Positions 24,392 to 62,121 of a stretch of DNA of 64,000 nucleotides are shown here, piece after piece (positions within the stretch are counted from its first letter, which is position 1; every line of letters begins with the position of its first letter). The stretch is taken from the NCBI RefSeq assembly GCF_003987435.1, contig NZ_PIQG01000004.1, positions 62,001-126,000 on the forward strand, read 5' to 3'. Made by a program: the position numbers and the translations under genes. This DNA is from Pseudidiomarina taiwanensis. Its GTDB lineage: Bacteria; Pseudomonadota; Gammaproteobacteria; Enterobacterales; Alteromonadaceae. The notes beneath the pieces were generated by a model. It made no database searches and was not told where the DNA came from. It was given only the letters and a program-made list of their open reading frames with translations.

Positions 24392-24532
24392 TACCGCGCT
24401 AGAAAAATTCGGCTGTCTTGTTGTGGCCTGTTACGAAGTCTAATGTTGTGCCTCGTTTTGGAAGTCATCAGTAATACACGTATTTTTATTAGCAATACCC
24501 TAGATTTTCACATGCACTACGAGGAATTCAGC

Positions 24533-24739
24533 ATGTCTACAGTAACTGGTAAAGTTAAATTCTTTAACGAAGCTAAAGGCTTTGGTTTCATCGAGCAAGA
24601 GTCAGGCCCTGACGTATTTGTTCATTTCAGCGCAATCCAATCAGACGGTTTCAAAACCTTAGCTGAAGGCCAAGCAGTAACTTTCACTATCGCTCAAGGC
24701 CCTAAAGGTCCACAAGCTGAGAACGTTATTCCTGGCTAA
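24533..24739 (+). CDS. Cold-shock protein (CspA family)
   Basis: A 68-residue single-stranded nucleic-acid binding protein (RNA chaperone) with a single cold-shock domain. The RNP1 motif KGFGFI and RNP2 motif VFVHF are intact, and the protein ends [12 protein letters not shown]. The true start is the ATG at 24533, with SD GAGGAA about 7 nt upstream; the open frame continues upstream to 24383 but that part is the mRNA leader. The strong promoter and long leader suggest cold or growth-phase control. A terminator follows and overlaps the cysE stop. Confidence 0.96.
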
Positions 24740-24761
24740 GCTGAAACGCTTATCAGAATTC

Positions 24762-24791
24762 AAAAAGCCGGTCATTCGACCGGCTTTTTTT
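24762..24791. terminator. Terminator shared by the cold-shock gene and cysE
   Basis: AGCCGGTC and GACCGGCT form an 8-bp stem with an ATTC loop, flanked by AAAAA on the left and a run of seven T on the right. It ends the cold-shock transcript, and its left arm covers the cysE stop codon (24772-24774); with the A run it may also serve the minus strand. Confidence 0.9.
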
Positions 24792-25572
24792 GTTGGCGCT
24801 GCTGCGCGGCTTCTTGCTCCGCGTGAATAAAATCCTCATCATCAATTTTGACTTCAGGGATCTCGTCACACACATTTCCGCCCAATTTATTTACCGCTTG
24901 GCATAAATCATGAATCTTTTGGTCTTGCAGATGAATATGGTCTAACAGTCGTCCAATGGTGGTCGCAACTGGGTCTGGGTTATCGGCCGCAACCGCATAA
25001 GCATCGAAACCATAGGCTTTGGCTAAAGCCTCTCGGCGTTTACTCTGGGCACTTGTTTGCGCTGATTTGGCAACTCGCGCAGGGATCCCAACCACAGTTG
25101 AATCTGCGGGTACATCCCGAACGACCACGGCGTTCGAACCAATTCGTGCGTTTTCGCCAACTTCCAGCGGTCCCAGCACTTTCGCTCCAGCGCCAATCAC
25201 CACTCCATCACGTAAGGTAGGATGACGTTTCCCTTTATTCCAACTCGTCCCACCTAGGGTAACCCCATGATACAAGGTGACATCGTCACCAATCTGTGCG
25301 GTTTCGCCTATGACCACACCCATACCATGATCGATAAAAAAGCGCCGACCAATTTCTGCACCTGGATGAATTTCAACGCCCGTTAGCCAGCGCCCGAACG
25401 TCGACAGCCAACGCGCGAGCCAACGCCAATTGCGCCGCCATAGTCGGTGACTTAGCCGATGGAGCCAAATAGCATGCAGGCCTGGATAGGTCGTGAGCAC
25501 CTCGAACCGCGTACGGGCAGCTGGATCGCGCTTGAAAACGCTATCGATATCTTCGCGGATACGCTCAAACAT
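24772..25572 (-). CDS. cysE: Serine O-acetyltransferase
   Basis: Makes O-acetylserine from serine and acetyl-CoA, the first step of cysteine synthesis. The 266-residue protein has an N-terminal helical region ([20 protein letters not shown]) and a left-handed beta-helix of hexapeptide repeats from about residue 65, with [13 protein letters not shown] and [14 protein letters not shown] that form the active site. The C-terminal tail is longer and more acidic than in enteric CysE and lacks the usual GDGI ending, so feedback inhibition by cysteine may differ. Two long inverted repeats lie in its upstream region (25589-25670). Confidence 0.93.
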
Positions 25573-27041: not shown

Positions 27042-27512
27042 TTAATTACGAACACCAAAATCTTTCAACAACTGGCGGACATCTTGCATAATGATGTCCG
27101 CCATTTCTTTTTCATAGCCTTCGCGTTCACGGTCCATCTTGCGAATTTCTGCTTTCGGGTATTGTTTGCGTGCCTCATGCGTCGGCATGTGCTTGATCCG
27201 TTCATACATCTCGTGCAACGCTGGATATAACTCACTATAAACAGGCTTGTTCGGCTCTGCACGCAAGTCTAATAAGACCACCAAACGAATCGCTCCCTCC
27301 GAAAAAGGGCATTGTTCTTGTTCCATCGCTTTGGCGATAGTGACGATACTCTCGTGCAGCCGCTCATTACGCTTATCAAGTGCTTGTTGCTGTTGCTGAC
27401 GCTGTTGTTTTAACTGGCGTAATAACTGCCCGGCGTAAAATGCCAAACCAATTAATATTGCCAAGCCAACTGCAACCAGTGCCCAGCCCCACCAAGGCAA
27501 CTCAATAATCAT
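27042..27512 (-). CDS. DUF2489 membrane-anchored protein
   Basis: A 156-residue protein with one N-terminal transmembrane helix (about residues 5-27), a glutamine-rich coiled coil (RQLKQQRQQQQQALDKRNE) and a cytoplasmic domain with QCPFSEGAIRLVVLLD and HMPTHEARKQYPKAEIRKMD, the signature of DUF2489. Function unknown. I chose the ATG at 27512 because GGAGG lies 6 nt upstream; it overlaps the end of yihI by 11 nt, so the two are coupled, as in other gammaproteobacteria. Confidence 0.85.
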   Translation of the reverse strand: MIIELPWWGWALVAVGLAILIGLAFYAGQLLRQLKQQRQQQQQALDKRNERLHESIVTIAKAMEQEQCPFSEGAIRLVVLLDLRAEPNKPVYSELYPALHEMYERIKHMPTHEARKQYPKAEIRKMDREREGYEKEMADIIMQDVRQLLKDFGVRN

Positions 27513-27978
27513 CTTCATCCTCCCAGTCATCGAGCTCATCATCGTCATCATCTAGCTCAAGACCCAGTTCTTCAGCCAATTGATTGAACCGTTCAGTACG
27601 GCTGTCGAGATAACTTAGATCGCTCTCACTGAGCTCTTCACCCGCCTCAAGCAAAGCAATCAGGCGCTGCAATTTGGTATCGTTTTGCAACGCCTCGAGT
27701 TCTTGCTGTGCAGTCGGTTGAGGCTTGTCGGCGACTTCACTGACGAGCGCTTGCGGGGCAATCAGAGTAACAGGCTTCTTACTGCCAAACCGGGAATCTT
27801 TTTCCTCCGGTTTGACCGAATTAGCCTCATTCTTGGCCCGGGTTAAGTTATGGCGCGAACCTGGCTTGTGGCCTTTATTACGCTTTGCTTTGGTTTGGCT
27901 GTCACGCTGAAGCTCTTCACGGGGCTTTTTGCTAGGGGCCAGTGGACCTGGCTGTCGAGATTTTTTACGACGTGTCAT
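27502..27978 (-). CDS. yihI: Der GTPase-activating protein YihI
   Basis: A 158-residue activator of the ribosome-assembly GTPase Der. The N-terminal half is very basic (MTRRKKSRQPGPLAPSKKPR) and probably disordered; the C-terminal half has the conserved LDSRTERFNQLAEELGLEL segment and an acidic tail of Asp/Glu. The charge split and length match YihI. It is followed by an overlapping DUF2489 gene. In enterics yihI also lies near polA, engB and hemN. Confidence 0.92.
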   Translation of the reverse strand: MTRRKKSRQPGPLAPSKKPREELQRDSQTKAKRNKGHKPGSRHNLTRAKNEANSVKPEEKDSRFGSKKPVTLIAPQALVSEVADKPQPTAQQELEALQNDTKLQRLIALLEAGEELSESDLSYLDSRTERFNQLAEELGLELDDDDDELDDWEDEDDY

Positions 27979-28063
27979 GCCAACTCTCCAGAATATATGT
28001 CAGTCGATAGATGGCTATAGTTTAACTGAAAATGCGGGTAAAGAAGAGGGATTCGCAAGCAAT

Positions 28064-28088
28064 AAAAAAGGCGATGAAATCATCGCCT
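28064..28088 (-). terminator. Intrinsic terminator of the candidate small RNA
   Basis: On the minus strand AGGCGATGA and TCATCGCCT form a stem followed by TTTTTT (28064-28069 as A on the plus strand). No minus-strand coding gene lies between this terminator and the cytochrome c4 terminator at 28485, so it implies a separate transcript. Confidence 0.8.
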
Positions 28089-28391
28089 AATTTATTCTCA
28101 ATCTGCCACACAGCGCACGTGCGAACTAGAGAACGGTTGTCAAACGCTTCCATGTTGTGAAATTTTATCTTCCGTGAGCGTTTTGTTGTTATTGTTATTT
28201 GTTTAGCGCATTAACCGAGCGTTTAGAATTATTATGAATGCTAGGTTAATTAAATGGCCTCCGTGGCCTCATGATTATTCCCTGGATCCTAATTTTGACC
28301 TAAATCGACCAGCTGGGAGTGCGTTAAACCCAAGCACACTGTCGGTTTCGATGGCATTCAGACTACTGATCCGAATTTTTTTATCAATGAT
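28064..28391 (-). ncRNA. Candidate CsrB/RsmY-type small regulatory RNA
   Basis: No coding frame fits this 550-bp gap. On the minus strand a possible -10 TATAGT (28403-28398) would start an RNA near 28391, and an intrinsic terminator ends it at 28064. The RNA carries four CANGGA motifs: CAGGGA, CACGGA in a GGCC-ACGGA-GGCC hairpin loop (28268-28256), and CACGGA and CATGGA together in a 28-nt loop closed by AAACGCT/AGCGTTT (28183-28142). There are also AGGAT and TCGGAT. CsrA binds GGA in loops, and about 0.3 CANGGA motifs are expected by chance. It would sequester CsrA. Confidence 0.5.
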
Positions 28392-28484
28392 TTTTATACT
28401 ATAAAAAAAATATTTTTAATAACTTTTAGGCTTAACCTTTGGTTTTACAGGGGTTCTGCTGTGCTTTTTAACGTTAACTAAAAC

Positions 28485-28512
28485 AAAAAAAGCAGCCATC
28501 GGCTGCTTTTTT
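28485..28512. terminator. Terminator after cytochrome c4
   Basis: AGCAGCC and GGCTGCT form a 7-bp stem with an ATC loop, flanked by six A and five T, active in either direction. It lies 20 bp beyond the cytochrome c4 stop. Confidence 0.9.
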
Positions 28513-28532
28513 AAGTCTATCTTAAGCTTATT

Positions 28533-29171
28533 TTAGTAAAGACCAGCAAGATATTGCGACAAAATTTCGATATCTTCATCAGTCATTTTCTTCGCAATGT
28601 CACGCATCATGCCATTCAAATCATTGTTACGCTGACCACTACGGAACATCTCAAGCTGAGCCTTAATATACTCTGGGTGATTACCTGAGATATCTGGGAA
28701 ACCAGCTAATCCCATGCCATCACCGCGTGGTCCGTGACATGCCACACAAGCAGTCAAGCCACGCTCCTCGTCACCACCAAGGTAGAGTTTGGCACCCGCC
28801 GCAACGACATCTTCTGGAGCGCCCACAATTTCAGCCGTCTGCTCTGAGAAGTAAGCGGCCAAATCAGCGATATCTTGGTCACTCAAATTCATTGCCTGAC
28901 CTTGCATGATCGCATTGGCACGGCCTTGTTCACCATTGGTTTGCGCCGCTAAGCGATATTCAGTTAACTGCTTAGCAAGATAAGACGCATGTTGACCGGC
29001 AAGGCTTGGGTACATTCCCGAAGCTGAATTACCATTCGGGCCATGACAGGCCGCACAGACCATTGCTTTGCTTTGACCAGCTTCAGCATCCCCTTCAGCG
29101 GCATAAGCAGCCGATGATGCAGCGAATAGACCCGCTACTAGTACTCCAACGGACAAGGCGATATTTTTCAT
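28533..29171 (-). CDS. Dihaem cytochrome c4
   Basis: A 212-residue periplasmic electron carrier with a signal peptide ending in AAYAAE and two class I cytochrome domains, each with a haem motif (CAACH and CVACH) followed by GPNG or GPRGDG, plus Met ligand segments around AIMQGQAMNLSDQD and LNGMMRDIAKKMTDED. It would pass electrons from the bc1 complex to terminal oxidases such as cbb3. I chose the ATG at 29171, which begins the signal peptide, over an upstream in-frame ATG. It diverges from engB, with a GATTAA-N4-TTAATC palindrome between. Confidence 0.94.
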   Translation of the reverse strand: MKNIALSVGVLVAGLFAASSAAYAAEGDAEAGQSKAMVCAACHGPNGNSASGMYPSLAGQHASYLAKQLTEYRLAAQTNGEQGRANAIMQGQAMNLSDQDIADLAAYFSEQTAEIVGAPEDVVAAGAKLYLGGDEERGLTACVACHGPRGDGMGLAGFPDISGNHPEYIKAQLEMFRSGQRNNDLNGMMRDIAKKMTDEDIEILSQYLAGLY

Positions 29172-29229
29172 GATCGATATCTCTGTTATGGATGATGATA
29201 TAGACGCTATTTTACACAAAACTTCTAAG

Positions 29230-29283: not shown

Positions 29284-29916
29284 ATGAGCGTAAGCATTAA
29301 CTTCCAACCGACCTCTTTTGTCACCAGTGCCGCGGATATTCGTCAGCTTCCCGCTGACGAAGGTGTTGAAATCGCCTTTGCGGGACGTTCAAATGCGGGT
29401 AAATCGAGTGCACTGAATACGCTGACTCGCCAAAAAAGTTTGGCCCGCACCTCGAAGACACCAGGGCGAACCCAGCTTATTAATGTATTTGAAGTTGCAC
29501 CTGGGCAGCGTTTGATCGATTTGCCCGGTTACGGCTATGCCAAAGTCCCGCTTGCGGTGAAAGAAAAGTGGCAGCGCGCATTAAGCGAATATTTACAAAA
29601 ACGACAATCACTCAAAGGCTTAGTCGTATTGATGGATATTCGCCATCCGTATCGGGACGTTGACCAGGAGCTCTTACACTGGGCAACCGCCTCCGCAATT
29701 CCAGTGCTGATCTTGCTCACTAAAGCCGACAAACTCAAACCTGGCGCACGCAAGAACACCTTACTAAAAGCCCGCGAAGCCGCTCTGGTATTCGGTGGTG
29801 ATGTTCACGTCGAAGCCTTTTCTTCGTTAACAAAAATTGGCTTAGCGCAAGTTGAGGCGCATCTCTCTCGCTGGCTCAACGATGCGGTGGATGAATCTGA
29901 CGATGCAGGCGAATGA
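29284..29916 (+). CDS. engB: Ribosome biogenesis GTP-binding protein EngB/YihA
   Basis: An essential GTPase for assembly of the large ribosomal subunit. The 210-residue protein has the P-loop [13 protein letters not shown], switch [23 protein letters not shown] (G3) and LLTKADKL (G4). The position between cytochrome c4 and polA matches related genomes. The downstream transporter gene starts inside its last codons. Confidence 0.96.
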
Positions 29917-30802: not shown

Positions 30803-30809
30803 GCCGGGC
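30784..30809 (-). terminator. Terminator downstream of polA
   Basis: On the minus strand GCCCGGCTCA and TGAGTCGGGC pair with one mismatch and are followed by TTTTT. It overlaps the end of the EamA gene and lies 170 bp past the polA stop, leaving a long 3' UTR or room for a small RNA. Confidence 0.8.
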
Positions 30810-30977
30810 AAAAGAACTTACAATCCAGGGAGAGAACATCTCGAAAGGTCAAACGTACCAAATCAACTTCTCGTTTAATGCGCCTTTCAATAGTTCAGAC
30901 TGAGCCTCTTTACAAAAGTTCAGAAATTCTCCAATTTTTTTAAGATCTATACATATCCAACTGATTTTATTGAGGTT

Positions 30978-33770
30978 TTAGTGCGCTTCATCCCAATTGT
31001 CACCAACCCCTGCTTCAGCAATTAACGGCACATCCAGTGCAATGGCTTGCTCCATCACCTTCACTAAGGCTTTGGTCAGCTGCTCCACACAGTCCTCACG
31101 CACTTCAAACACTAATTCATCGTGGACCTGCATCAACATCCGTGCTTCACCTGCTTGTGCATGCTTAGCGAGATATTGGGCCACATCAATCATGGCACGC
31201 TTAATAATATCTGCAGCTGTGCCTTGCATCGGGGCATTAATCGCAGCTCGCTCGGCAGCCTTGCGACGCGCGCCATTTTGCGCTCGAATTTCAGGTAGCT
31301 GTAAACGCCGACCCAGCAAGGTTTCAACGTAACCTTGCCGCTTCGCTTGCGCACGGGTGCGTTCCATATAGTCCAAAACGCCAGGGAAGCGCTCAAAATA
31401 TTTATCCATATACTGTTGTGCTTCATGCCTTGGAATATCAAGCTGACGAGACAAACCGAAGGCTGACATGCCATAAATCAAACCAAAATTAACCGCCTTT
31501 GCGCGCCGCCGTTGTTCGGTTGTCACATCTTCCAAAGCGATACCAAACACTTCAGCGGCCGTCGCCGCATGAATATCTCGTCCTTTAGAAAAGGCATCAA
31601 GCAAACTCTTATCTTGCGATAAGTGCGCCATGATCCGCAGCTCGATTTGGCTATAATCGATAGCGACAATTTTGTATCCCTTTGGTGCGGTAAACGCCTG
31701 CCGTACACGGCGGCCCTCGGCCGTTCGGATCGGAATGTTCTGTAAATTCGGGTCAGAAGACGATAACCGCCCGGTTGCCGTGACCGCTTGATGATAAGAA
31801 GTATGAATGCGATGCGTCGAAGGGTTCATCATCTTCGGTAACTTATCCGTATACGTCGACTTCAGCTTACTCAAGCCGCGGTGTTGCATAATAATGTGCG
31901 GCAACGGATAGTCTAAGGCGAGCTCTTGCAGCACATCTTCTGCAGTTGATGGGGCGCCCTTCGGCGTTTTCTTCAACACCGGCAGTTGCAGCTCATCGAA
32001 TAGAATTTCTTGTAGCTGCTTAGGTGAGCCAAGATTAAACTCGCGCCCCGCAATCGCATAGGCTTCGGCTTCAAGTTTAGCCAAACTCTCGGCAAGCTCC
32101 TTACTCTGCTGCTTAAGTAAATCCGCATCGATTTGCACGCCCGCCTGCTCCATATCCACGAGCACTGGAATGAGCGGCAACTCAATTTCGGTTAAGACCC
32201 GGTGTAACGGCTCAATTGCGCTCACTTCAGACCATAATCTATGGTGCAACTGCAACGTAATATCAGCATCCTCAGCGGCATAAGGTGCCGCCTGCTCAAG
32301 TGCGATCTGGTTAAACGTCAGTTGCTTCGCGCCTTTACCGGCTATGGCTTCAAACGAGATAGGGTTATGCCCCAAATATTTAAGGCTTAAGCTATCCATA
32401 TCGTGACGACTGCCGACACTGTTAAACACATATGATGCCAACATCGTATCATCTGCAATACCCGCGAGACGGATACCATAACGGCGCAGAATGTGACTAT
32501 CATATTTCAGGTTCTGGCCGATTTTACCGGGACGCTCTGCCTCTAATAAGGGGCGTAATAGCTCGAGTAAGCGTTCACGCTTAATCTGCTCGGGCGCACC
32601 CGGATAATCATGACCCACTGGCACATAGACAGCATGCCCGGGTTCAAGCGCGAATGAGACCCCTACCAGCTCTGCTTCCATGTAATTCAGACTGGTGGTT
32701 TCCGTATCAAAAGCAAACTGCTCCGCCTGGCTCAGCTTGTCCAGCCATGGTTGCAACTCAGCCTCGCTGAAGAGCACTTGATAGGCATCGTGCTGAATCG
32801 GTTGCTCAAGCAATGAGCCTTGGCTATTGAGTTCACTCTGTTGCGACTCGCCTGGATCCTGTTGATGGCGCACAGAAACCGGTCCGCGTTCGGTTAAATC
32901 GGCAAGCCAACGGCGGAATTCACATTTTTGATAGAGTTCTTGCAAACGCTCAGGATCTGGTTCTTTGAGGGCAAGTTCAGCAGGAGCGAAATCCAGTGAA
33001 ACATCGAGCTTGATGGTCGCCAACTCGCGCGACAGTTGCAAAATATCCTGATGCTCGCGAACTTTCGCAGGCATGGTTTTTGCGCCTCGAAAACTTAATT
33101 CCGCAAGTTTATCGGGATCGGCCAGTATGGCATCGATAGAATCCATGCCATGCAGCATTGCCAGCGCAGTTTTCTCGCCCACCTTGGGTAGCCCAGGAAT
33201 ATTATCCGAACTATCCCCCATCAGTGCCAAGTAGTCGATGACTTGATCGGGACGAACACCGTACTTATCAATCACCCCTTGCTCATCAAGCAAGGTATCC
33301 GTCATGGTGTTAATCAACATCACATGGTCGTTGACTAACTGCCCCATATCCTTATCGCCGGTGCTGATCAGGGTGAACCGACCCTCCTGGCTGGCTTGCT
33401 GGGCTAAAGTACCAATCACATCATCAGCCTCAACCCCTTCAATACAAAGCAACGGCAAACCGAGTGCTTCAATAATCTGATGCAATGGTTCAATTTGCAC
33501 TCGCAAATCATCCGGCATCGGTGGGCGATGAGCTTTGTATTCAGAATAAATTTCGTTACGAAACGTGGGGCCTTTAGCATCGAATACAACCGCCATATGG
33601 CTTGGTTTGTATTTCAACAATAGGCTACGGAGCATATTCACAACACCGTAGATCGCACCGGTCGGCTCGCCCGCCGAATTGGTTAAGTGGGGTGGTGCGT
33701 AGAAGGCTCGGAATAAATAGGACGAACCGTCGACCAAAATAAAGGGATTTTCGGGTACTGTAGCGCTCAT
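30978..33770 (-). CDS. polA: DNA polymerase I
   Basis: A 930-residue repair and Okazaki-fragment polymerase. The 5'-3' exonuclease domain (1-290) opens LVDGSSYLFRAFYA; the 3'-5' exonuclease (about 335-520) keeps the catalytic acids in FAFDTETTSLNYMEAE, so proofreading should work; the polymerase domain has RLSSSDPNLQNIPIR, VAIDYSQIELRIMAHLS (motif A), RRRAKAVNFGLIYGMSAFGL (O-helix) and MQVHDELVFEV (motif C). Full length compared with the 928-aa E. coli enzyme. A DnaA box lies about 100 bp upstream of its start. Confidence 0.98.
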   Translation of the reverse strand: MSATVPENPFILVDGSSYLFRAFYAPPHLTNSAGEPTGAIYGVVNMLRSLLLKYKPSHMAVVFDAKGPTFRNEIYSEYKAHRPPMPDDLRVQIEPLHQIIEALGLPLLCIEGVEADDVIGTLAQQASQEGRFTLISTGDKDMGQLVNDHVMLINTMTDTLLDEQGVIDKYGVRPDQVIDYLALMGDSSDNIPGLPKVGEKTALAMLHGMDSIDAILADPDKLAELSFRGAKTMPAKVREHQDILQLSRELATIKLDVSLDFAPAELALKEPDPERLQELYQKCEFRRWLADLTERGPVSVRHQQDPGESQQSELNSQGSLLEQPIQHDAYQVLFSEAELQPWLDKLSQAEQFAFDTETTSLNYMEAELVGVSFALEPGHAVYVPVGHDYPGAPEQIKRERLLELLRPLLEAERPGKIGQNLKYDSHILRRYGIRLAGIADDTMLASYVFNSVGSRHDMDSLSLKYLGHNPISFEAIAGKGAKQLTFNQIALEQAAPYAAEDADITLQLHHRLWSEVSAIEPLHRVLTEIELPLIPVLVDMEQAGVQIDADLLKQQSKELAESLAKLEAEAYAIAGREFNLGSPKQLQEILFDELQLPVLKKTPKGAPSTAEDVLQELALDYPLPHIIMQHRGLSKLKSTYTDKLPKMMNPSTHRIHTSYHQAVTATGRLSSSDPNLQNIPIRTAEGRRVRQAFTAPKGYKIVAIDYSQIELRIMAHLSQDKSLLDAFSKGRDIHAATAAEVFGIALEDVTTEQRRRAKAVNFGLIYGMSAFGLSRQLDIPRHEAQQYMDKYFERFPGVLDYMERTRAQAKRQGYVETLLGRRLQLPEIRAQNGARRKAAERAAINAPMQGTAADIIKRAMIDVAQYLAKHAQAGEARMLMQVHDELVFEVREDCVEQLTKALVKVMEQAIALDVPLIAEAGVGDNWDEAH

Positions 33771-60735: not shown

Positions 60736-62121
60736 TTACGCCGACAAGGTTCGGATCAAGTTTCGATAATCTTCTTTTATATCATGTTGCGCGTCTTTCA
60801 ATTCTTGAATTTTCCGACACGCGTGCAAAACCGTCGTATGGTCGCGCCCACCAAATGCATCACCAATTTCTGGCAAGCTATGGTTGGTCAGCTCTTTTGC
60901 TAGCGCCATCGCCAATTGCCGTGGGCGCGCGACAGAACGACTACGCCGCTTAGACAAGAGATCAGACATTTTAATGTTGTAGTATTCTGCGACCGTTTTC
61001 TGAATGTTATCAATCGTGACTAACTTCTCTTGCGCAGCAATGAGATCTCGTAACGCTTCACGCACAAAGTCGATAGTAATTTGGCGCCCGGTTAAATTGA
61101 CATTGGCAGCAAGGCGATTCAATGCACCTTCCAATTCGCGCACGTTTGAACGCAGTCGTTTTCCGATGAAAAACGCCACCTCATGCGGCAAAGTGATCCC
61201 GCGTTCTTGTGCTTTGCGAATCAAAATCGCAACCCGTGTTTCCAGCTCGGGCGGCTCAATGGCAATGGTTAAACCCCAACCAAAGCGCGACCGCAACCGG
61301 TCTTCTACCCCTTCGATTTCTTTCGGGTAAAGATCGCTGGTCATAATGATTTGTTGATTACCTTCAAGTAACGCATTGAAAGTATGGAAGAATTCTTCCT
61401 GAGAGCCTTTTTTGTTGGCGAAAAAATGAATGTCATCAATAAGCAGCGCGTCAACTGAACGATAGTAGCGCTTGAATTCGCTAATCGAACTGTTGCGAAT
61501 CGCATTGACCATATCTTGAACGAATCGCTCAGCTCGCATATAGAAAACTTTGGCGTCTTTCTTGTGCGCCATAATGCCATTACCGACGGCGTGCAGCAGG
61601 TGGGTTTTACCTAATCCGGTGCCACCATAAATAAATAGCGGGTTATACACGCCACCGGGGTTCTCAGCCACCTGTAGAGCCGCCGCTTTTGCCAGTTGGT
61701 TTGACTTACCCTCGACAAAATTATCAAAGGTGTACTCTGGATGAATATTGCACTCGAATCGTGGTGCGGCACTATCGTCATCGTCCCATGGCTGCCGACG
61801 CCCAGTTGGGCGCGCACTGGAACCACGACGAGGCGGTGGGGTCTGCGCCGTTTCGGCTTTCGCAGACTCGAGCCCGCCAACTTTAAACACCACATTGGGC
61901 ACCTGCACGGCATGGGTTTTCGCGGCTTCGCCGAGATAATCATTAATTAAGGCAAGATATTTGTCTTTAACCCAATCGATAACAAAGTTGTTGGGCGCAT
62001 AGAGAGTCAGGGTGTCACCGGACAGATCCGCCTGTAACGGACGAATCCACGTATTAAAGTGTTGTGATATCAATTCACTTTGCAGTCGTTCGACGCAATG
62101 TTGCCAAAGCGAATTATTCAC
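60736..62121 (-). CDS. dnaA: Chromosomal replication initiator DnaA
   Basis: Initiates replication at oriC and regulates genes through DnaA boxes. The 461-residue protein has domain I (1-80, [20 protein letters not shown]), a linker, an AAA+ domain with [17 protein letters not shown] and LLIDDIHFF, and domain IV with [15 protein letters not shown] for DNA binding. It starts with GTG at 62121, with GGGAG 6 nt upstream. A TATAAT -10 lies at 62148-62143. Two DnaA boxes upstream suggest autoregulation. Confidence 0.98.

Follow-up and report, generated by a model that had tools for sequence, protein, structure and literature searches.

In Escherichia coli K-12, the small RNA CsrC (b4457) lies between yihA and yihI on the yihI strand (annotated gene order polA, spf, yihA, csrC, yihI). 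Its activator UvrY is described as binding TGTGAGACATTGCCGATA upstream of csrC, phosphorylation being required for tight binding (PMC4682653). Shewanella oneidensis is reported to have two GGA-rich Csr RNAs, CsrB1 and CsrB2, of ~420 nt, which are UvrY-dependent with a TGTAAGN6CTTACA box and are encoded at another locus (PMC3171408). In Alteromonas macleodii Te101, a related marine bacterium, the three A(N)GGA RNAs Aln1a-c, 96–99% identical to one another, are encoded together in the 404-nt gap that separates Te101_04650 from Te101_04655, and CsrA sequestration was proposed for them (PMC5864184).

We analysed a 64,000-nucleotide stretch of the Pseudidiomarina taiwanensis genome (the window), in which an initial annotation, made from the letters alone, had proposed a CsrA/RsmA-titrating RNA on the minus strand of the gap between yihI and cytochrome c4. 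Conservation of its GGA motifs, covariation, its place at the csrC locus and a bridging covariance model all support that proposal: the element is probably a stand-alone small RNA of ~290 nt (28064–28353, minus strand) that shares descent with E. coli csrC and titrates CsrA. It resembles E. coli CsrC in its GGA motifs and in how it is placed and oriented with respect to the yihI and yihA genes; the bridging model matches both, the window only weakly. It differs in that cytochrome c4 lies in between, that no UvrY box and no match to the Rfam CsrC model RF00084 were found, and that the 3′ domain of the Pseudidiomarina RNA was not seen elsewhere; it has four conserved GGAs, compared with the 11 CsrA sites stated for CsrC (PMC7366521). 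Literature searches on Idiomarina with CsrB or UvrY returned PMC7366521 only, and on Pseudidiomarina small RNA returned none; broader searches showed nothing on this RNA among the matches listed (first 10 of 351 and first 10 of 381). The RNA is likely, though not certain, to be previously undescribed.

Features of the candidate RNA

The RNA is delimited by a promoter-like block and an intrinsic terminator, both conserved in 24 loci of the genus. The terminator (28064–28088, minus strand) has its stem at 28069–28088 and a T run to 28064, as first annotated. No coding gene obviously feeds it, because a separate terminator-like site (28486–28512) follows cytochrome c4. At the other end, a −35-like TTGATA (28382–28387, minus strand) is followed after 16 nt by a −10-like TAGTCT (28360–28365, minus strand), a spacing that is exact in 24/24 loci. 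TTG is kept in all 24 and the full TTGATA in 14; the −10-like box reads TAGTCT in 15, TACTCT in 5, TACATT in 3 and TACCCT in 1. Our promoter scan, at 9 of 12, returned nothing on the minus strand, so TTGATA was not reported by it. From the two boxes we infer that minus-strand transcription would start near 28353 and run to 28064, with a 5′ end accurate to several nucleotides either way; 28391, the start first annotated, is a possible alternative.

Four CsrA-type motifs lie within these limits, all on the minus strand: CAGGGA (28279–28284) within the invariant CCAGGGAA; a second motif (28260–28265) in the loop of the hairpin GGCC-ACGGA-GGCC (28256–28268); CACGGA (28171–28176), single-stranded in the consensus fold; and CATGGA (28149–28154). 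The second and third are separated by a stem, TTAACCTAGC / GCTCGGTTAA, whose loop is A-rich (28211–28249, minus strand), and by an A-rich linker, AATAACAATAACAACAA (28183–28199, minus strand), that is unpaired in the consensus. The RNA then continues into a 3′ domain of two nested stems, TGACAACCGTTCTC ... GAGAA (28091–28142, minus strand), before the terminator. The ANGGA motifs stand in loops or single strands, as in CsrB, CsrC and Rsm RNAs, and their number is low.

Four CANGGA motifs in 328 nt are unusual, against 0.35 per dinucleotide shuffle (P 0.0005; ~0.3 by chance in the initial annotation); four are reached by 0.15% of the window's 328-nt stretches on both strands, and none has more. 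The looser ANGGA also occurs four times, but with P 0.05 (1.3% of stretches reach four), and since this excess is only borderline, motif density alone is modest evidence. The overall fold has no excess stability over shuffled sequences (z −1.16 for the 328-nt stretch, z −0.91 for 28353–28064). Taken from a single genome, the evidence for a Csr RNA is suggestive, not decisive. The borderline ANGGA count and the ordinary fold energy are what would be expected of an A+T-rich spacer that holds a terminator and a few GGAs by chance, but such a spacer would hardly show the conservation and covariation over three genera set out below, and we give this explanation practically no credence.

Conservation and covariation across three genera

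A nucleotide search found the element in 25/26 Pseudidiomarina genomes (genus g1), the single miss being an 88% complete genome. We aligned 24 of the 25 copies (alignment A1; L039 was dropped, its 5′ part missing). In 24/24 rows each of the four motifs keeps its GGA unchanged, amid variable surrounding letters that include the N of CATGGA. For the first GGA this invariance is partly by construction, because it sits in the anchor CCAGGGAA that sets the 5′ end of A1 and was found in 24/25 loci. RNAalifold on the 24 copies gave the terminator together with the GGA hairpin, the second stem and a nested 3′ hairpin. Covariation inside the genus is slight (3/28 pairs).

Two further genera, g28 and g11, carry the element; we take them to be Aliidiomarina and Idiomarina, which together with g1 would make up the Idiomarinaceae. 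An alignment of 41 sequences (A3; 24/25 genus, 13/15 g28 and 4/5 g11 loci), which was fitted to the model and is therefore biased toward it, had 96.5% of cells paired, compared with 37–50% in slid controls. Changes on both sides of a pair occurred at 12/28 pairs, against a shuffled mean of 2.9. They include compensatory change at 4/5 consensus pairs of the TTAACCTAGC / GCTCGGTTAA stem (helix 2) and at 5/5 pairs of the inner stem of the 3′ domain (helix 4). The GGA hairpin (helix 1) also covaries: 22/24 genus copies are GGCC-AGGA-GGCC, and the five g11 copies read have CGCC/GGCG (4) or TGCC/GGCA (1), so that an outer pair that is G-C in 24/24 genus copies becomes C-G (4) or U-A (1). In most of the 15 g28 copies, by eye, a GGA stands in a hairpin other than this one, GGTT-ACGGAA-GACC or a close form. 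Covariation across the three genera shows the predicted structure to be maintained.

Not all of the features first annotated survive this comparison. A 7-bp stem had been proposed to close one loop around two GGAs; its arms, AAACGCT (28177–28183) and AGCGTTT (28142–28148), are present and pair in the predicted fold of the candidate sequence, but only in this genome: each of the remaining 23 A1 rows has pairs at just 2–5 of the 7 positions, and the stem is missing from the consensus fold. AGGAT (28286–28290) is present but not conserved. TCGGAT (28369–28374) is also present but probably falls outside the RNA, because it lies between the −35-like and −10-like boxes.

A covariance model built from g1 alone (R1) matched, in 295 family genomes and among the matches listed, at E < 1e-4 only in g1 (15 genomes), g28 (15) and g11 (12); a thirteenth g11 genome gave E 0.0013. 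Matches outside these genera at E 0.001–0.1 (27/295 genomes) were roughly as frequent as chance would give, and we set them aside. The window genome has a single R1 match, and therefore no close second copy was seen.

In A1, hardly any change is seen in the 3′ block TGACAACC..TTCTC...GAGAA or in the terminator. We considered whether this block could be a small protein gene starting at TGACAACC, since a preceding A, T or G makes ATG, TTG or GTG in 25/25 loci, with a GGA a few bases before. The frame, however, is anywhere between 5 and 50 codons long (the window copy has 5) and is shifted by indels, and we rejected this reading as very improbable.

If the RNA titrates CsrA, its GGA motifs, of which the consensus places one in a hairpin loop and three in single strands, would bind the CsrA dimer and hold it away from target mRNAs, and four sites could hold about two dimers. 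The window genome encodes one ordinary, intact CsrA of 63 residues.

Place in the genome and relation to csrC

The candidate RNA is flanked downstream by yihI (Der GTPase activator; 27502–27978, minus strand; PF04220 E 1.1e-27) and upstream by a gene with cytochrome c domains (28533–29174, minus strand), for which "c4" is the name used by the initial annotation and by us. Beyond it lie a yihA-type GTPase (29284–29916, plus strand; MMR_HSR1 E 1.6e-18), presumably engB, a gene that reads from its open reading frame (ORF) as transporter-like, and polA (30978–33770, minus strand; by domain search). The order is thus polA, transporter-like gene, engB, cytochrome c4, candidate RNA, yihI, and the RNA has the place of csrC: it shares the strand of yihI and lies between that gene and yihA/engB, with cytochrome c4 inserted. 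A cytochrome c4-like match was present in 59/59 family genomes. Five g11 genomes (L188-L191, L193) have a gene for a protein of ~580–600 aa on the opposite strand upstream of the RNA; this extra gene separates the RNA from cytochrome c4, and the RNA still precedes yihI.

Sharing the strand of yihI and lying directly upstream, the element might instead be a yihI leader or attenuator whose terminator would control yihI, 85 nt downstream. However, several loci in other genera of the family keep the gap RNA though the next gene is not yihI, a promoter-like block and a strong terminator are both conserved, and csrC, in the equivalent place in E. coli, is annotated as a separate RNA. We therefore regard a leader as very improbable.

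A similar RNA occurs in the equivalent gap of other genera. Of the 80 named loci, 20 were scanned with Rfam at gathering thresholds and 9 with E-values. In 5/9 of the latter sources the gap matched an Rfam model over the full length of the model, below gathering (E 1.4e-8 to 0.027): CsrB in Enterovibrio (43.4 bits), Ferrimonas (40.6), Grimontia (39) and Vibrio comitans (22.6), and CsrC in Shewanella (25.9). The gaps of Pseudoalteromonas, Veronia, Aestuariibacter and Pseudidiomarina aestuarii gave no such match in the same scan, and by eye those of Oceanisphaera and Vibrio litoralis held nothing similar. Within the family, the gap behind cytochrome c4 combines two features in 13/30 best loci: a hairpin of the GYGTC-AGGA-GAC type and the motif GGGAGA-GTGT.

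We built a second covariance model (R2) on gap RNAs from other genera (13 sequences, none from g1, g28 or g11). It matched csrC as annotated in E. coli (30.4 bits, E 9.8e-5, the match lying within csrC) and, at E 7.1e-6 or better, 9/9 additional loci of the family that were tested, as well as Shewanella (L107, E 4.7e-13). With 13 loci found by motifs and 9 more by R2, a gap RNA is present in at least 22/30 best family loci. In the other direction, R2 matched at the right place in 10/13 sources of the three genera (E 5.1e-6 in L193, 0.0016 in the Pseudidiomarina copy L020, up to 0.15), and R1 matched the gap RNA in 9/14 sources of other genera (L046 E 1.8e-5, L058 0.0011, seven at 0.01–0.6). 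E-values of both models are approximate, and a weak one taken by itself carries little weight; what counts is agreement in place over many loci. This chain of models links the Pseudidiomarina RNA to csrC, and common descent of the two would explain it.

Several observations nevertheless weigh against descent from csrC or against titration. The CsrB, CsrC and RsmX/Y/Z models of Rfam, which the initial annotation had named as a check, found nothing: no Csr/Rsm match appeared in an all-family scan of the window, nor in 27900–28600 even at E 10, RF00084 included, and the CsrB model matched nowhere in the window's genome. R2 matches the window weakly (E 0.1), at the candidate and as its sole match there; it missed L004, L171 and L188 and matched off-place on the minus strand of L106 (E 0.012) and L081 (E 0.018). 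R1 gave no match to E. coli csrC, Grimontia, Enterovibrio or Vibrio, missed 5/14 sources and matched off-place at E 0.014–0.07. The csrC-type UvrY box (11/11 over TGTRAGACATT) occurs in 0/24 g1, 0/15 g28 and 0/5 g11 loci; its absence alone means little, because only 2/30 family gaps reach even 10 of 11. Finally, GGAs are few, the most conserved stretch is the 3′ domain, which has no GGA, and by eye 8/15 g28 copies keep an AGCC/GGCT stem but have lost the GGA from its loop.

These last points would suit a csrC-descended RNA that acts mainly through its 3′ domain, by pairing with other RNA or through a different protein, and in which the binding of CsrA has weakened or become a side function. 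Against it stand the four GGAs, invariant in 24 genus copies amid varying neighbour letters. A search of the genome for the complement of the 13-nt 3′ core found 3 forward and 0 reverse sites (at most one mismatch, one site being the gene itself), compared with 3 and 2 for a control; because this is the control frequency, there is no obvious antisense target. We consider a mainly 3′-domain function unlikely and favour CsrA titration by a csrC-descended RNA.

The low-threshold scan of 27900–28600 also gave 28 Rfam matches, none of them Csr/Rsm and all below gathering, which we took as chance. Conserved GGA-bearing RNAs with the GYGTC-AGGA-GAC hairpin recur in the cytochrome c4 gaps of the family (for example, L048, L051, L058 and L064), and an alignment of these family gap RNAs (A2) has two-sided change at 14/30 pairs. 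At gathering thresholds Rfam reported nothing in the 20 family loci scanned; A2 could seed a new Rfam family. Taken together, the results suggest an old csrC locus whose range reaches far outside the enteric bacteria, and a Csr-type RNA of a large family of marine bacteria that Rfam does not cover.

UvrY, BarA and the upstream region

The csrC-type box was present in 21/79 named gaps (Pseudoalteromonas, Vibrio, Ferrimonas and Veronia) and in 0/79 reversed controls, L083 being too short and dropped from the scan. A strict pattern, TGTRAG-N6-CTYACA, scored weakly also in many Csr-RNA loci, and TGTRAGACATT was sharper. In the three genera, UvrY has a degenerate receiver. The UvrY of the window genome, encoded next to uvrC (L195 1489-2142; G000:C1:446929-447579, plus strand), has its helix-turn-helix (HTH) domain, has no receiver domain recognized in Pfam at E 0.01, and lacks the phospho-Asp, the acidic pair and the Lys. 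Among 12 UvrY proteins of the three genera (5 g1, 4 g28 and 3 g11), each followed by a uvrC motif, 12/12 carry other residues in place of D8, D9 and K104, and 11/12 in place of D54 (one keeps Asp). Outside these genera, all four residues are kept in the 16 and 15 readable proteins of two samples; L216 and L217, misread because the locus is cut at a contig end, were left out of the 30 loci of the first sample, and three loci that the search pattern did not recognize were left out of the 18 of the second. BarA matches are weak. The four genomes of the three genera that were searched gave the four weakest best matches of 59 genomes (E 4.6e-68, 7.9e-68, 3.7e-72 and 2.6e-73; next 8.8e-83), and in three of the four the match covers only about residues 263–524 of 918. 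About half of the other genera also have no match to the N-terminal sensor, yet match from ~236 to beyond 880; because so many genera lack that sensor match, a diverged BarA is a possible reading too. The only BarA match of the window genome at E 1e-40 is a hybrid kinase (HisKA, HATPase, two receivers and Hpt; L197 262-2271, match G000:C1:102063-102806, minus strand) beside a gene that we read as gshA-like. GacS and GacA are stated to occur in Idiomarina (PMC7366521), a statement that concerns gene presence; our UvrY result concerns residues.

The BarA–UvrY switch above the RNA thus looks broken, and because the UvrY receiver is degenerate in all three genera, switching of transcription by BarA–UvrY phosphorylation has probably been lost. 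An A+T-rich 26-bp element upstream of the −35-like box (28398–28423, minus strand), at a fixed distance from it, is a candidate activator site or operator, and may be where either a UvrY that works without phosphorylation or some other factor acts. In many relatives this element is an imperfect inverted repeat, GTTATAA-N12-TTATAAC, and its best match has a constant place and spacing in 28/40 loci of the three genera (5 further loci were dropped, their anchor not found; the consensus was picked after seeing the data). The window copy fits 11/14 positions, not above shuffles (P 0.2). A more far-reaching possibility, which we hold only tentatively and think less likely than not to be right in full, is a rewired Csr circuit in which BarA is gone, UvrY has turned into a DNA-binding protein that needs no phosphorylation, and the csrC-locus RNA, driven by UvrY or by another factor, has lost the majority of its CsrA sites while acquiring a novel, strongly conserved 3′ domain that serves a second function. 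With the phosphorylation residues of UvrY lost and CsrA and the RNA kept, these genera may offer a natural case of global-regulator control without the classical sensor.

Spot 42 was matched by Rfam upstream of the locus in 14/20 named loci scanned; the other 6, including Pseudidiomarina aestuarii, gave no match, nor did the sequence beside polA in the window (30803–30977). Elsewhere in the window, Rfam matched a cspA thermoregulator (24408–24792) and AsdA (61551–61629).
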